Positions 16,377-22,938 of a DNA stretch of 64,000 nucleotides are shown piece after piece; positions within the stretch are counted from its first letter, which is position 1, and every line of letters begins with the position of its first letter. The stretch is from an uncultured Ectothiorhodospiraceae bacterium (GTDB taxonomy: Bacteria > Pseudomonadota > Gammaproteobacteria > Nevskiales > Oceanococcaceae). The DNA lies in NCBI GenBank assembly GCA_937141935.1, contig CAKZQS010000019.1:1-64000 (forward strand), in the 5' to 3' direction. A program made the position numbers and the translations under genes. The notes beneath the pieces were generated by a model, which worked only from the letters and a program-made list of their open reading frames with translations, was not told the origin of the DNA and ran no database searches.

Positions 16377-17446
16377 GCGCCGCGCTGGCCGAACACCCGC
16401 GGGCCGCCGCACTCAGCGCCGCAGGCGCCGAACACCGCTGGCCCTACACGCCGGTGCGCGACTGGCTGGCCAGTCCACAGGCCGCGGCGGAAGCCGAGGC
16501 CCTGGCGCTGCCTCTGCCCGCACACTACGCCCCCGCGCCCGACGCGGCGCGCGGCGACTGGCAGGTCGACGCCGCAACGGCGCATGTCGTCCGGGCCGAG
16601 GCACAAGCCGACTGGCAGGAGCGGCAGTGGGGCTGGACGGTGCCGGCCAACACGCAGGCACGCGTGGTTCTCGATACCCGTGTCGCCGCGGGCGCCGTGC
16701 TCGACCTGAGCCTGCGGGCGCAGATCGGCGCCGGCGCGCGGCTGCATATCCTCCGCCTGGTCGACGTCGCGGCCGGCGGCCATGGCTTTGAGACCTGGCA
16801 GTTCGAGCAGGCCGAGGACTCGCGGGTCGACGTGCTCGAATACCAGGTCGGTGCCGGACGGAGTCATTTGGCGCTGAACAGCCGCCTGCAGGGCGCGCAG
16901 GCGGAGTTCCACTGGCAGGGGCTGGCGCTGCTCGGCGGCCAGGCGCGCGCCGTGGCCCAGCTGCGGGTCGAGCACCTGGCGCCGGCCTGCCGCAGCCGGC
17001 TGGAGCTGCGCAACGTGCTTGGCGGGCGCAGCCGGCGCTCGGTGATCGGCAATATGCACGTGGCCCGTGCCGGCCAGCAAACCGACTCGGCCCAGGCCTG
17101 CCACAGCCTGCTGCTGACGCCGGGTGCCCGGGTCGATATGCGCCCCGAGCTGGAGATTTACGCCGACGATGTCCAGTGCGCGCACGGCGCGACGAGCGGG
17201 GATCTCGACGAGACCGCCCTGCACTATCTGCGCAGCCGCGGCCTGGACAGCAACACCGCCCGTCGCTTGCTGCTGGAAAGCTTTGCGCTGCCGATCCTGG
17301 GCACCGCCGACGAGGGCCTGCAGGCACCGTTGCGCGACGATGCCGGCACCCGACTGGCGCAGATGGGGGCGGACCTCAGTGCGGCCAGCGCTGCACGAGT
17401 CAGCGCCCGTGGGCGGGGCCGCGATCAGGCCAGAGGCCGCGCATGA
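16373..17446 (+). CDS. sufD: Fe-S cluster assembly protein SufD
   Basis: Scaffold paralogue that pairs with SufB and is needed for iron entry. It has 357 residues. The N-terminus is divergent, and the beta-helix core ends with the conserved [20 protein letters not shown] and ARRLLLESFALPIL. Sequence conservation outside this C-terminal region is low, as is normal for SufD. It overlaps sufC by four bases (ATGA) and sufS by four bases. The last 25 residues are Arg-rich and look non-conserved. Confidence 0.93.
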   Translation: MSAALAEHPRAAALSAAGAEHRWPYTPVRDWLASPQAAAEAEALALPLPAHYAPAPDAARGDWQVDAATAHVVRAEAQADWQERQWGWTVPANTQARVVLDTRVAAGAVLDLSLRAQIGAGARLHILRLVDVAAGGHGFETWQFEQAEDSRVDVLEYQVGAGRSHLALNSRLQGAQAEFHWQGLALLGGQARAVAQLRVEHLAPACRSRLELRNVLGGRSRRSVIGNMHVARAGQQTDSAQACHSLLLTPGARVDMRPELEIYADDVQCAHGATSGDLDETALHYLRSRGLDSNTARRLLLESFALPILGTADEGLQAPLRDDAGTRLAQMGADLSAASAARVSARGRGRDQARGRA

Positions 17447-18663
17447 GCTTCGACGTGCAGGCGCTGCGCGCGGACTTCCCCGCCCTGGCCCAGGAGGTCA
17501 ACGGCCACCCGCTGCATTACTTCGACAATGCGGCCACGACGCTCAAGCCCCGCTCCGTGATCGCGGCGCTCGATCGCTACAACAGCCTGGACACGGCCAA
17601 TGTGCACCGGGGCCTGCACGAACTCTCCGCCCGCGCCACCACCGCCTACGAGGCCACGCGCGGCAAGCTTGGCGAGTGGCTCGGCGTGCCGGAGTCCGAG
17701 GTGGTGTACACCCGTGGCACCACCGAGTCCATCAACATCGTCGCCCAGTGCTGGGCGCGCGAGAACCTGCGGTCCGACGACGAGATCGCCATCAGCGCGC
17801 TGGAGCACCACGCCAACATCGTGCCCTGGCAAATCGTCGCGCGGCAGACTGGCGCGCGGCTCGTGGTGTTGCCCCTGAATGCGCAGAACCACATCGATCT
17901 GGAGGCGGCCGCCGCGCGTATCGGGCCCCGCACCAGGCTGCTGGCCATCAGCGCCGGCTCCAATGCGATTGGCAGCCTGAACCCCCTGCCGGAGCTGATT
18001 GCGCTGGCCAAGGCGCAGGGTGCGCGCGTGCTGGTTGACGGTGCCCAGGTGGCGATCCGCGGCCCGATCGAGCTGCCGGCCCTCGGTGTGGACTTCTATT
18101 GCGCCTCGGCGCACAAGATGTTCGGCCCCACCGGCAGCGGCCTGCTGTGGGCCCCGCGGGAACTGCTCGAGGCCATGCCGCCGTGGATGGGCGGCGGCGA
18201 CATGATCGAAACCGTGCGTTTCGAGGCGAGCAGCTATGCCGAGCCGCCGTGGAAGTTCGAGGCCGGCACGCCCAACATCGCCGGCATGATCGGCTTTGGC
18301 GCCGCACTGGACTATCTGCAGACGCTGGATCACGCCGCGATCGCCGCGCACGAGGATGCGCTGCTCGCCCGCGCCCGCGCCGGCCTGGAAGAGATCGACG
18401 GCCTGCGCATTCTGGGTCCGCGGGTACACAGCCTGCCGCTGGTGTCCTTTGTGCTCGAGGGGGCGCATGAGCAGGACGTCGCGACGCTGCTGAACGAGAA
18501 CGGCATCGCCGTGCGCACCGGCCATCACTGCGCCATGCCGCTGATGGCGGAGCTGGGCCTGCGGGGCACCATCCGGGCCAGTTTTTCGGCCTACAACACC
18601 CTCGACGAGGTGGATCACCTGTGCCACAGCATGGCTCGCATTGCCCGCCTGCTGCGTGCGTGA
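17443..18663 (+). CDS. sufS: Cysteine desulfurase SufS
   Basis: PLP enzyme that removes sulfur from cysteine for the SufBCD scaffold. From ATG 17443 it has 406 residues. It shows the N-terminal FDNAATTLKP, the PLP lysine in SAHKMFGPTGSG and the active-site cysteine in RTGHHCAMPLMAEL, which marks the group II (SufS/CsdA) type. Such enzymes need a SufE or SufU partner; neither follows here. The open frame extends upstream inside sufD, but the N-terminus argues for this start. Confidence 0.96.
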   Translation: MSFDVQALRADFPALAQEVNGHPLHYFDNAATTLKPRSVIAALDRYNSLDTANVHRGLHELSARATTAYEATRGKLGEWLGVPESEVVYTRGTTESINIVAQCWARENLRSDDEIAISALEHHANIVPWQIVARQTGARLVVLPLNAQNHIDLEAAAARIGPRTRLLAISAGSNAIGSLNPLPELIALAKAQGARVLVDGAQVAIRGPIELPALGVDFYCASAHKMFGPTGSGLLWAPRELLEAMPPWMGGGDMIETVRFEASSYAEPPWKFEAGTPNIAGMIGFGAALDYLQTLDHAAIAAHEDALLARARAGLEEIDGLRILGPRVHSLPLVSFVLEGAHEQDVATLLNENGIAVRTGHHCAMPLMAELGLRGTIRASFSAYNTLDEVDHLCHSMARIARLLRA

Positions 18664-18686
18664 ACCGACGCCGCGACGGTAATTTT

Positions 18687-18715
18687 TTGACAGCCGCGCG
18701 TCGTCATGGCGCAAT
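18687..18715 (+). promoter_or_regulatory. Candidate promoter for the degenerate GGDEF/EAL gene
   Basis: A perfect TTGACA (18687-18692) is followed after 17 bases by CGCAAT (18710-18715), a poor -10. If used, transcription would begin near 18722. That excludes the ATG at 18706 and supports the ATG at 18757. Confidence 0.35.
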
Positions 18716-18756
18716 GCCTGCTTAACACAGGCCATGACGGCAAAGATGCATCGCTC

Positions 18757-21642
18757 ATGACGGGGTCCGAACAGGTGCAGACGCGCGGCGCGAGCCGCGG
18801 CCCGCTGCTGCTGCTCAGCATGCTGGCGCTGGCGCTCGCGCTGGCCGCCGCCGTCGGCCTGTGGTGGTGGCAGTACTCGGGCTTTGCACCGGCCGCGCCG
18901 CGCGCCGACGGCGCACCCAGCGCCGCATTGGAGCAACGCAGCGCCGCCCTGGCCCGTTCGGTGGCCGCGATCGACGCCGTGTCCGCCCTGCTCGCCGTCG
19001 ACCTGCCGCGCAAGGCCGAAACCGAACTCGCCACACGCCTGCAGCTCGCCGGCGACGACTTCGTACAACGCACCGGCCTGCTGGCCGTGTCCTGGTGGCC
19101 GCGCGACGAGAACCGCCCCGCGGCCTACCTGCGGCGCATCGACGGCGACTGGGCCGCCGCCCCCGAGGCCGCCTCGGCGGGCGCCGCCGCGCGCATGCAG
19201 GCCTGGTATCTGATGGCGCCCCGACTCGCCCGCGCCGGCTGCCTGTGGTCCGCGGTCGAAAGTGAAAGCTTCAGCCAGCGCGCCGTCGTCAGCTGCAGCC
19301 GCGCGGCCACGCAAGCCGGTGGCGAATGGAGCGGCGTGCTGCGCATGTCCTTCGCCGTCGATGCGCTGTTCGCGCCCGTGCGCAGCGGGGGCGACGCCCT
19401 GTACCTGCTGGCCGACGCCCAGGGCCGCGTGCTGGCCAGCAGCGATGCCGCGCTGGAGCGGGCGCGCAATCTGGGCGATGTGGGCCAGCAGCGGCCGCAG
19501 CTCGGCCCGCTGAGCACGGCCGTGTACCTGGAGCGCGAAAGCCAGCGCCAGGCGGCCTCCCGCACACCCCCCGAGGGGCTGGCCCAGGCCCTGGTGCAGG
19601 CCGGCGCGGCCGGCAGCCTGGAGCGCGCCTCGGAACTGATCCGCGCCAGCAGCCTGCCGGGCAGCGCGCTGGCCGGCCCGGCGCAGTGCCGTGGCGGGCT
19701 GTGCACCGAACCGATGGCCGTCGCCAACGCGCCCTGGCGCATCGAGCGAATCAGCGAGGCAGGGGAGACCTCCCTGCTGAGCCTGGCCAGCGGCTACCTG
19801 CCGCTGCTGGTGATCGTCGGCGGCCTGCTGCTGCTGGCGCTGCTGAGCTACTTCGTCGCGCGCGCGCTGCTGCTGCGCCCGCTGCTCTCGCTCAGCGAGC
19901 CGCTGTCGCGACAGAACCCGGGCCCGGCCTTCAACGAGCGCCTGCACGGCGAATTCGGTCGTATCGCCAAACACCTCAATGAGCTGATCGAGGGCAACCA
20001 GAAGCTGCGTGCGCAGCAGCTGGACCCGCGCCGCGCCGCCGCCGCGGCGGCCGCCGCCAGCGCGCCACCGCCCAGCGAACCGCGCGCGCTGCCGCTGGAG
20101 GCGCTGCCGCTGCCGGCGCTGATCATCGACGCGCAGGGCGTGGTGATCGACAGCAACCCGCCCGCGCGCAGCCTGCTCAGCCTGAAGCCCGGCGACGCCA
20201 CCGGCGAACTGGACCTGCGCACCGCCCAGGGCAAGCAGTGGACACTCGGAGCCCTGCCCGGTGGCTGGCACGCCGTGCACTGCACGCTGCGTCACCCCGG
20301 CCTGGGCGAGCGCCGCGTGATGATCTCGACCAATGCCGCGGGCGACCCGCGTGGCACGCTGGTGATGCTGCAGCCCGCCGCGGTACCGCCCAGCCAGCGT
20401 GGCGCCGCGCCCGCTAGCGCCGATGCGGATGCGCGGCTGTCGCGCAGCGCCTCGCTGCGCCTGGCCCTGAGCACGCTGACGCAGCCAGTTCACTGGCTGC
20501 TGTTGCAGGCCGGACCGGAAACCCCGCTGCCCCAACTCGCGGACGCCCAGACGCGGGAGAGCTTCAACGAACAGTTGCGGGCGCGGGTCGAAGATCGGCT
20601 GGAGAGCAGCGAGAATCTGCTGCTGCTCGGCGCCGACCGCTTCCTGGTCAGCGCGCCCGGCGGCATCAGCCAGGACCGCGCCGACGCGCTGCGCCAGGGG
20701 CTGCAGACGGCGCTGGTCTTCTACGAGGGCCAGCGCATGCGCCTGAAGGCCAGCACGCACTTGCTGACGGTTCGCCCCGGTATGCGCGTCGAGGACGTGG
20801 ACGCCGCCATCCACCAGCAGTTGCACCGCGACAGCGACAGCGGCCTGCCCGGGGGCACGGCGGCACCGGCGCGCAGCTTCAGCGTCGAGGAATGGAACCG
20901 GCTGATCGCGACCGGTTTCGACGCGCAGCGCTTCCACCTGATCACCGAGCGTGGCCGGCCGCCTGGCAAGCCCGGCAGCGAATCGCTGGTGTTCCGCGTG
21001 CTGCCGCACCTGGAAGACGATGAAGGCTTCTGGCTCGGCCTGGCCGAATTCCTGCCGGCCGTCGAGCGCCTGGGCCGACGCGCCGATCTGGACAGCCTGG
21101 TCGTGGAGGAAGTCCGCCGCGCCTTGGCCTCGCTACGTGGCGAGGTCCCCGAGCAGGTCTTCCTGCCGCTGTCCGCGCAGGGCCTGATGGGCAGCCACGA
21201 CGAGGTGGCCGAGAAACTGGGCACCCTGGCCCATGACCCCGCCATGTCTGGCCTGCGGCTGGTGCTGTGCTTCTCGGCGCAGGAGCTGCGCGAGGGCACG
21301 CTGGATCTGGGCCGGCTGCACAGCCTGACCCGCAGCCTGGGTTGCCGCGTGGGGCTGGAGTCGCTCAGCGTCGATGCCAGCAGCCTGCTGCTGATGGAGA
21401 AGCTGCAGCCGGATGTGGTAATTCCCCGCCCCGAGCTGACCGCCGCCGCTCTGGAGTCGCCCAGCTTTGCCATCGGCCTGGAGTCGCTGATCCGTGCTGC
21501 GGAGCGGCTCAAGGCCACGCCGGTGCTGACGGGCATCAACGACAGCCGGGCGCAGCAGCTGGCCGAAAAACTCGGCGCCGGCATCGCCTTTGGCGGCGCC
21601 ATCGGCAAGCCCAGCCCGCTGCTGTTCCAGGCCGTCGCCTAA
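18757..21642 (+). CDS. Membrane sensor with PAS-like and degenerate GGDEF and EAL domains
   Basis: A large inner-membrane protein of 961 residues from ATG 18757, or 978 from ATG 18706. Visible order: TM helix near residues 16-38 (LLLLSMLALALALAAAVGLW), a periplasmic region of about 300 residues, a second TM (YLPLLVIVGGLLLLALLSYF), a HAMP-like stretch, an Ala/Pro linker, a PAS-like segment (PALIIDAQGVVIDSNPPARSL), a GGDEF-like fold with LLLLGADRFLVSAPGG where GGDEF should be, and an EAL-like barrel. In the EAL part the catalytic motifs are changed: SLVFR for EALLR and GLESLSVD for the DDFGTG region. The YLKID lysine and QGY loop are also lost. It is probably a non-catalytic c-di-GMP receptor or scaffold. 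It lies 93 bases after sufS; linkage is unclear. Confidence 0.7.
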   Translation: MTGSEQVQTRGASRGPLLLLSMLALALALAAAVGLWWWQYSGFAPAAPRADGAPSAALEQRSAALARSVAAIDAVSALLAVDLPRKAETELATRLQLAGDDFVQRTGLLAVSWWPRDENRPAAYLRRIDGDWAAAPEAASAGAAARMQAWYLMAPRLARAGCLWSAVESESFSQRAVVSCSRAATQAGGEWSGVLRMSFAVDALFAPVRSGGDALYLLADAQGRVLASSDAALERARNLGDVGQQRPQLGPLSTAVYLERESQRQAASRTPPEGLAQALVQAGAAGSLERASELIRASSLPGSALAGPAQCRGGLCTEPMAVANAPWRIERISEAGETSLLSLASGYLPLLVIVGGLLLLALLSYFVARALLLRPLLSLSEPLSRQNPGPAFNERLHGEFGRIAKHLNELIEGNQKLRAQQLDPRRAAAAAAAASAPPPSEPRALPLEALPLPALIIDAQGVVIDSNPPARSLLSLKPGDATGELDLRTAQGKQWTLGALPGGWHAVHCTLRHPGLGERRVMISTNAAGDPRGTLVMLQPAAVPPSQRGAAPASADADARLSRSASLRLALSTLTQPVHWLLLQAGPETPLPQLADAQTRESFNEQLRARVEDRLESSENLLLLGADRFLVSAPGGISQDRADALRQGLQTALVFYEGQRMRLKASTHLLTVRPGMRVEDVDAAIHQQLHRDSDSGLPGGTAAPARSFSVEEWNRLIATGFDAQRFHLITERGRPPGKPGSESLVFRVLPHLEDDEGFWLGLAEFLPAVERLGRRADLDSLVVEEVRRALASLRGEVPEQVFLPLSAQGLMGSHDEVAEKLGTLAHDPAMSGLRLVLCFSAQELREGTLDLGRLHSLTRSLGCRVGLESLSVDASSLLLMEKLQPDVVIPRPELTAAALESPSFAIGLESLIRAAERLKATPVLTGINDSRAQQLAEKLGAGIAFGGAIGKPSPLLFQAVA

Positions 21643-22053
21643 GCCCCCAAAACCGTCGGAGCTGGCCCGCGCCTGCGACCTGCGAGCAGCGAAGGCGCGC
21701 GCAGTGCCGATATGGCCCGGGCGCCGCTCCGGCACCGCGACTTCCCAAGATCAGTTCTGGCCCGGTGCCGGGTCAGGCCTGGCTGCGCACCCGGCCCGCG
21801 GCGTCGCCTAAGGGCCGCTTGCGCCGCGTGGCGGAGCGAGTTCCGCGTCTGGCAGCGGCCCGCATTCCCCGGAACCTGCGGCGCGCCGGCCACAGCCGCA
21901 AGGGCAAAAAAAAACGCGCCGCCGGGCTCAACCCGACGGCGCGCAGTAGTCCATCCCTAAGCCGCCCGCCAGAGCGACGGGCTCGGCCCGCGCCGGGGCG
22001 GGTCCTGCCTGCCCCGGGGGCCGGGTTCCTGCCTGCCGGGGGCCGGCGCGGGC
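21643..22053. other. 411-base intergenic stretch without a convincing gene
   Basis: It lies between convergent genes. Short open frames are present on both strands but none has a ribosome site or recognisable sequence. The only supported element is the minus-strand terminator at 21906-21943. A 10-base string GTCGCCTAAG occurs at the end of the upstream gene and again near 21800. I see nothing else. Confidence 0.5.
21906..21943 (-). terminator. Rho-independent terminator for htpX
   Basis: On the minus strand a stem of 7+4 bp around one mismatch (CGCGCCG/CGGCGCG, then CGGG/CCCG) with a 5-base loop is followed by nine Ts. It lies 110 bases after the htpX stop. Confidence 0.9.
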
Positions 22054-22938
22054 TTAGTTGGCGCGCTGCAGCGCCGCGATGCGCTGCTCCAGCGGCGGGT
22101 GCGTGGCGAAGACGGCGCGCAGCGAGGCCCCCATCGACGGCGCGATGCCGAAGGTCTGCAGCTGCTCGGGCAGCTGGCCCGGCACGTTGTCGCGCCGACC
22201 CTGCAATCGCTGCAGCGCCTCGATCATCTTGCGCTTGCCCGCCAGGTGCGCGCTGCCGGCATCGGCGCGGAACTCGCGGCGGCGCGAGAACCAGGCCACG
22301 ATCGCCGAGGCGGCAATGCCCAGCAGGATCTGCAGCACGATCACCGTGACGAAATAGCCGATGCCGACACCGCGCTCGTTGCGGAAGACGGCCCGGTCGA
22401 TGATGGTGCCAATGACCCGCGCCAGGAACATCACGAAGGTATTCAGCACGCCCTGCAGCAGCGTCATCGTGATCATGTCGCCATTGGCGATGTGGGCGAC
22501 CTCGTGGCCCAGCACGGCCTCGACCTCGTCCTGGCTCATCTGCTCGAGCAGGCCGGTGCTGACCGCCACCAGGGCCTTGTCACGCTTGGCGCCCGTCGCA
22601 AAGGCATTCATGTCCGGCGAGTCGTAAATTGCCACGTCCGGCATGCCGATGCCGGCCTGGCGCGCCTGGCGGGCCACGGTCTGCTTGAGCCAGTTCTCGG
22701 CCGCATTACGCGGCTGCTCGATCACACGCGCGCCGGTGGACTTCAGCGCCATCCACTTGCTGATGGCCAGGCTGAAAAAGGCACCGCCAAAGCCGAACAG
22801 CGCACTGAACGCGAGCAGCATGCCCAGGTTCAGGCCGTTCTGATTCAGGTACTGGTCCAGCCCCAGCACCGAGGCGACGACGGCGAGCACAAGCAGCACG
22901 GCGAAGTTGGTGCCGAGAAAGAGCAGAACGCGGGTCAT
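22054..22938 (-). CDS. htpX: Membrane zinc protease HtpX
   Basis: Heat-shock-linked M48 metalloprotease of the inner membrane that degrades misfolded membrane proteins. From ATG 22938 ([16 protein letters not shown]) it has 294 residues, matching the E. coli length. Two N-terminal TM helices precede the cytosolic HExxH (H145-E-x-x-H149 in [12 protein letters not shown]), then two more hydrophobic segments and the third zinc ligand region ([11 protein letters not shown]). An upstream in-frame extension of 21 codons lacks homology and would reach into the end of parC. GGAG lies nine bases before the chosen ATG. Confidence 0.95.

Follow-up and report, generated by a model that had tools for sequence, protein, structure and literature searches.

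The window, a stretch of DNA of 64,000 nucleotides, carries on its forward strand a gene for a large transmembrane protein, preceded by a suf cluster. The features of the locus are the following:

17176-18663, + strand: sufS, which closes the suf cluster lying upstream, a cysteine desulfurase by cluster similarity and by reading
18757-21642, + strand: the whole gene, an uninterrupted open reading frame of 961 amino acids for a transmembrane dCache-HAMP-PAS-GGDEF(dead)-EAL(dead) receptor
18799-18876, + strand: first transmembrane helix (residues 15-40), a helix in the AlphaFold model and hydrophobic by reading
18877-19764, + strand: periplasmic dCache-like sensor (about residues 41-336), with a dCache_1 match below the cut-off
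19792-19866, + strand: second transmembrane helix (about residues 346-370), within the model helix 337-384 and hydrophobic by reading
19867-20019, + strand: HAMP-like or coiled linker (about residues 371-421), helices in the model
20095-20376, + strand: PAS-like domain (about residues 447-540), with weak Pfam matches and a fold match to PA0861
20422-20835, + strand: degenerate GGDEF domain (residues 556-693), from the model and a fold match
20629-20643, + strand: GADRF at the GGDEF position (residues 625-629), from the alignment
20890-21627, + strand: degenerate EAL domain (residues 712-957), from Pfam and a fold match
20995-21009, + strand: RVLPH replacing EALLR (residues 747-751), with His in place of the ExLxR Arg
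21010-21033, + strand: family signature LEDDEGFW (residues 752-759), with the derived positions E753, E756, F758 and W759

The start listed for sufS is the longest possible one and lies probably too far upstream. A promoter scan of 18400-22100 gave no promoter-like sites, and tRNA and Rfam scans of the 64-kb window gave nothing. On the minus strand, a terminator-like hairpin with an eight-T run (21914-21944) is placed to end the htpX transcript.

The open reading frame and the order of its parts proposed in the initial annotation (transmembrane helix, periplasmic domain, transmembrane helix, HAMP-like, PAS-like, GGDEF and EAL regions) were borne out by the AlphaFold model, by fold matches and by Pfam searches with 29 aligned members of the family. 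In the window protein, the EAL model (PF00563) scored 64.5 bits, against a cut-off of 31.3, over residues 746-952; dCache_1 (PF02743) was weak (17.3 bits, E 0.0036, cut-off 45), as were PAS_4 and PAS (E 0.021 and 0.059), and neither GGDEF (PF00990) nor HAMP gave a Pfam match. The expectation that standard models might miss the two turnover domains thus held for GGDEF but not for EAL. Among the 29 members, EAL was matched in 29, PAS_4 in 27, GGDEF in 26, dCache_1 in 24 (counted at E ≤0.01; best member 8e-11) and HAMP in 7. The ortholog of the congeneric species (L035) is 942 amino acids long, is 34-35% identical to the window protein and has a matching N-terminus. Two cysteines of the sensor, C162 (19240-19242) and C180 (19294-19296), are kept in most members and lost jointly in some relatives, and this pattern suggests that they may form a disulfide. 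A second pair, C311/C316 (19687-19704), is common to L035 and was not seen there in other rows of the full-length alignment A1.

The AlphaFold model, built from a 29-row alignment, has a mean pLDDT of 76.1 and a pTM of 0.51 for the whole protein, so that the domains can be relied on one by one, but not their arrangement relative to each other. The best Foldseek match was PA0861 PAS-GGDEF-EAL (E 1.9e-24); in VIA-align, the match to PA0861 starts at residue 441-452. Among the 50 matches listed by VIA-align, Z ranged from 21.9 to 26.9, and almost all were EAL structures; most single EAL chains gave Z of about 25-27 and an rmsd of about 2.6-3, as illustrated by 4kie (Z 26.8, rmsd 2.6 over 253 residues), LapD 3pjt (Z 24.9) and FimX 4fok (Z 26.9). 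When the GGDEF region was modelled by itself (pLDDT 84.5), it was matched by 33 chains at E ≤0.001 and reached Z 12.7 against GGDEF domains, the value for PleD 9g86 (rmsd 3.2 over 145). A fold other than GGDEF/EAL, which the initial annotation had named as evidence against its proposal, was thus looked for and did not appear.

A profile of the sensor alone (A2) was run against 85 Nevskiales genomes. Of these, 50 gave a match at ≤1e-5 and 42 at ≤1e-70, together with one contig-end fragment. The window genome was placed in this order by its named relatives, Oceanococcus, Stagnimonas and Nevskiaceae. All four genomes of family f1 contain a strong sensor match, and no strong full sensor match was found by this search in genomes of f3, f5 and f6; in two f6 genomes, a similar sensor is carried by proteins that read as chemotaxis receptors. 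The EAL part was examined in the 30 aligned members. It should be noted that L059 and L060, whose motifs are those of ordinary EAL proteins, were dropped before A1; that L057, whose N-terminus is lost at a contig end, was left out of A2, and L056 out of A4 as it has no GGDEF region; that, with L157 included later than A1, the EAL table has 30 rows and the GGDEF table 29; and that L031 (the G003 copy) and L033/L034 (G004/G056) were counted once each. L056 (8600-11743), as assembled, retains the sensor and the EAL domain and lacks the GGDEF region entirely. The paralogues L057 and L058 are second copies in two genomes of one family; their signature reads GSE or GVE in place of GFW, and they have no suf, recJ or htpX neighbours.

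The full-length profile A1 picks ordinary GGDEF-EAL proteins and is unsuited to a search of the class, for which the sensor was used. Among 369 genomes sampled from the class, 14 sensor matches outside the genus were strong (E ≤3.6e-44). By eye, six are histidine kinases (L144, L147, L148, L149, L150 and L153), two are chemotaxis receptors (L151 and L152) and four are GGDEF-EAL proteins whose motifs are intact (L141, L142, L143 and L145); L146 is interrupted by a contig end and L154 is a split frame. A degenerate GGDEF-EAL pair occurs in 0 of these 14. Across L141-L156, outside the family, this dCache type is reused on proteins that read as histidine kinases, chemotaxis receptors and intact-motif GGDEF-EAL proteins.

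We scored nine EAL positions, which we take to be the catalytic, metal- and substrate-binding ones, in the 30 members and in 28 control GGDEF-EAL proteins of the class; ACT_L145, misaligned at the EAL motif, was excluded from all counts. The window protein keeps none of the nine. The EAL Glu is replaced by R747, the ExLxR Arg by H751, the Asn by P804, the ITE Glu by A841, the two Asp by E868/S869, the KID Lys by I889, the FVE-type Glu by T925 and the Gln by F945, the placement of the Asn, ITE Glu and Gln being alignment-dependent in this protein (the MAFFT view sets F945 and G946 adjacent there). Earlier assignments of GADRF to the GGDEF position, of GLESLSVD to DDFGTG and of IPRPEL (I889-R891) to KID agree with the alignment, whereas SLVFR, previously taken as the counterpart of EALLR, is four residues out of register, the true equivalent being R747-V-L-P-H751. 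Within the family, the Glu is kept in 21 members, the Asn in 13, the ITE Glu in 17, the first Asp in 22, the Lys in 18 and the Gln in 25, and the ExLxR Arg, the second DDFG Asp and the FVE-type Glu are each lost in 30 of 30. By contrast, the controls keep the Glu, Arg, Asn, ITE Glu and first Asp in 28, 27, 28, 28 and 27 cases and the other four sites in 27 each (one control row is incomplete, which affects the second Asp and the FVE-type Glu). That a clade of 30 shares losses which the 28 controls almost entirely lack is more than chance. Because the members form one clade (SH-aLRT 100), the alignments fit a loss of the Arg, second Asp and FVE-type Glu as one event in the ancestor, and they indicate that the remaining sites were eroded later, quickest in the window's genus.

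The GGDEF domain tells a similar story: the Glu of the motif is lost in 28 of 29 members and kept in 1, and the RxxD I-site was found by alignment in 0 of 29, although many orthologues retain GTP-contacting residues. As the metal- and substrate-binding residues of an active EAL phosphodiesterase are missing and GADRF stands in place of the GG(D/E)EF of an active diguanylate cyclase, the window protein is predicted to have neither activity. Folds and lost residues together support the original proposal of catalytically dead GGDEF and EAL domains on a transmembrane sensor.

A dead EAL domain might still bind c-di-GMP and signal to a partner or through the membrane, as in LapD or FimX. According to a review (PMC10333796), ExLxR determines whether an inactive EAL domain binds c-di-GMP: FimX, LapD and Erwinia CsrD are binders and the EXMXR CsrD is a non-binder; in LapD, R450 lies at the centre of the c-di-GMP site (PMC3032553). 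Since the ExLxR Arg is absent from 30 of 30 members, c-di-GMP binding is unlikely here. The shared logic of a dead GGDEF and a dead EAL domain, the fold matches to 3pjt and 4fok and a phmmer match to the LapD EAL domain (6.8e-5) speak for such a mode, as does the NCBIfam LapD equivalog (E 1.3e-8); yet the latter reached 33.7 bits where the cut-off is 1020, and LapG (PF06035) was not found in the window genome (G000, 98.29% completeness). With these results, the lost Arg, the 0/9 EAL sites and the 0/29 RxxD motifs, we consider the LapD-like reception advanced in the initial annotation rather unlikely, and on the equivalog score, the missing LapG and the lost sites LapD-like action was rejected as the main reading. 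A LapG-type peptidase (PF06035, 3.2e-13) is present in the congener (G001:C3:359999-360337), the only one of 21 genomes searched. Less eroded orthologues may bind nucleotides weakly or in an altered manner, as several keep most other EAL residues and many the GTP-contacting GGDEF residues.

The family has also gained residues. Compared with the 28 controls, the 30 members are near-invariant at G720 (30 vs 5), H727 (27 vs 0) and T730 (26 vs 0), and similar differences were found for E753 (30 vs 2), E756 (30 vs 6), E909 (28 vs 10), F758 and W759 (both 28 vs 0) and F957 (30 vs 0). The invariant family motifs are FHL.T, LED[DE]EGFW and the C-terminal Phe. D754 and G757 are ancestral, being carried by 24/28 and 26/28 of the controls; an earlier view of LEDEEG as wholly new was withdrawn, as controls often read xDEEG. 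In the model, the segment from H727 to W759 covers the first two EAL strands (726-734 and 745-753) and the following loop, beside the former active site. By strand parity, the gained residues would point into the pocket. The presence of H727, T730, E753, F758 and W759 at this place would suit an EAL or GGDEF pocket that binds another ligand, the barrel mouth being rebuilt and the protein sensing two ligands. We regard this as unlikely: the pocket-facing direction is taken from strand parity, a surface patch would fit the same residues equally well, and F758/W759 are replaced in the paralogues L057 and L058.

Selection was estimated by the Nei-Gojobori method. Of the nine pairs tested, seven close ones had a dN/dS of 0.095-0.197 over the whole gene and of 0.018-0.146 over EAL; the L049/L044 pair gave 0.41, and the window/L035 pair gave 0.48 with almost saturated synonymous sites, a value that says little on constraint. 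Given the new invariant residues and the purifying selection in most close pairs, these comparisons indicate that the family overall is under purifying selection and hence is not decaying. Within the window's own lineage, the gene could instead be a functionless relic drifting to loss. Its genus has a very long stem (2.22 changes per column, and 1.93 in a second tree, which carries a warning that long branches meet at this genus), the nine EAL sites are all lost, and Pfam recognises PAS and GGDEF barely or not at all. However, both species of the genus have full-length frames (961 and 942 amino acids), LED(D/E)EGFW and the same place behind sufS, and the EAL and GGDEF folds are predicted with fair confidence, which makes a relic very improbable. 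Retention in this lineage is indicated by the uninterrupted frame, the preserved signature and the unchanged position of the gene in both species.

The surroundings of the gene were compared among 28 orthologues, paralogues L057 and L058 being excluded; neighbours were named by similarity to cluster representatives, themselves named by reading. Upstream, sufS lies on the same strand in 18 (the sufBCDS setting) and a FecCD/BtuC-type permease in 9, with an ATPase alongside in those read; for the remaining one, L056, a trigger-factor gene alone is in view. Downstream, 24 have a convergent recJ, and the other four (the window, the congener and two relatives) have htpX-parC. In the window genome, sufB and sufD were matched by PF01458, and its two SUFBD proteins are both in this cluster. 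In the three importer pairs tested of the nine, the ATPase exceeded the NCBIfam haem-transporter cut-off each time; the permease passed no NCBIfam cut-off and was nearest to BtuC. Mapped on the EAL tree, the genes upstream changed twice and those downstream once at the least. Such few changes mean that the gene was inherited together with its surroundings, and the shared position supports orthology at about 20% identity. Recent acquisition is unsupported, as the position is common across the order. The suf and haem-importer neighbours are a weak hint of a link to iron, a theme that rests on two arrangements only, as the upstream setting changed twice. A bolder proposal, that an order-wide receptor was rewired from c-di-GMP to iron-cofactor homeostasis, its dCache-like domain sensing a periplasmic signal and its rebuilt, c-di-GMP-blind EAL barrel controlling Fe-S assembly by sufBCDS in most species and the haem importer in others, appears to us decidedly unlikely. 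The neighbourhood comparison gave no dedicated gene for a periplasmic partner, for which the initial annotation had proposed a search.

Taken together, these results lead us to favour, as the probable reading, a sensor of the dCache type whose output works by contact and does without c-di-GMP. An ordinary GGDEF-EAL protein would have evolved into a transmembrane receptor whose dCache-like periplasmic domain presumably senses a small molecule or a partner. By way of the second transmembrane helix, the HAMP-like linker and the PAS-like domain, the signal would reach a GGDEF-EAL pair that would neither make nor break c-di-GMP and most likely would not bind it either. As output, the EAL barrel may then alter its contacts with other proteins (or with RNA), probably through the conserved LED[DE]EGFW loop and adjoining residues. 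Contacts of this type are known: a two-hybrid study in E. coli describes them for inactive GGDEF/EAL domains, including CsrD with DgcT (PMC5635695), and the cyclase GcbC is described as contacting LapD (PMC5231407). In the window genome, 11 matches to GGDEF and 9 to EAL were found, the window protein being among the latter, so that contact with one such protein is possible.

No description of the family was found in the open-licence literature searched, and that on Nevskiales and GGDEF gave nothing related. Several of the best-studied dead GGDEF-EAL proteins (LapD and FimX) still bind c-di-GMP. A family in which the Arg was lost before diversification, the fold was selected and residues were gained would offer a clean case for a nucleotide-free role of these folds; the family-specific residues are direct targets for mutagenesis, and the suf and haem-importer neighbours make the physiology testable.

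Among known systems, E. coli CsrD resembles the window protein as a membrane HAMP-dGGDEF-dEAL protein for which the review PMC10333796 states that c-di-GMP is not bound in that species; it differs, from the same source, by its GAPES4 sensor and the Arg of its ExMxR motif, whereas the sensor here is dCache-like and no Pfam match to GAPES4 was found in the window protein at E up to 10. A CsrD-like mode, in which an inactive module makes protein or RNA contacts, is a better analogy than LapD and may apply here; CsrD itself promotes the decay of CsrB/CsrC by RNase E. In LapD, likewise a receptor of the membrane whose GGDEF and EAL domains are dead, KVLSR stands where the window protein reads RVLPH; LapD keeps R450 and binds c-di-GMP (PMC3032553), whereas the window protein has H751 and its genome gave no LapG. 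Similarly, the EAL domain of FimX is described, in PMC10333796, as binding c-di-GMP with its ExLxR, a motif that the window protein lacks. RbdA/PA0861, a PAS-GGDEF-EAL protein of Pseudomonas aeruginosa, is the best PDB sequence match (E 2.1e-7) as well as a fold match, but has E-LLLR at the EAL motif, so that Glu and Arg are present, and structure titles report it with c-di-GMP and with GTP bound. Outside the order, L141 and L142 share the sensor profile, the transmembrane layout and the GGDEF-EAL pair but have intact IGGDEF, RxxD, EALIR, DDFGTG and KID motifs and no PAS domain seen by reading. Inactive GGDEF-EAL receptors are thus known, and what is new here is a dCache-PAS-dGGDEF-dEAL protein without ExLxR that is conserved in one order.
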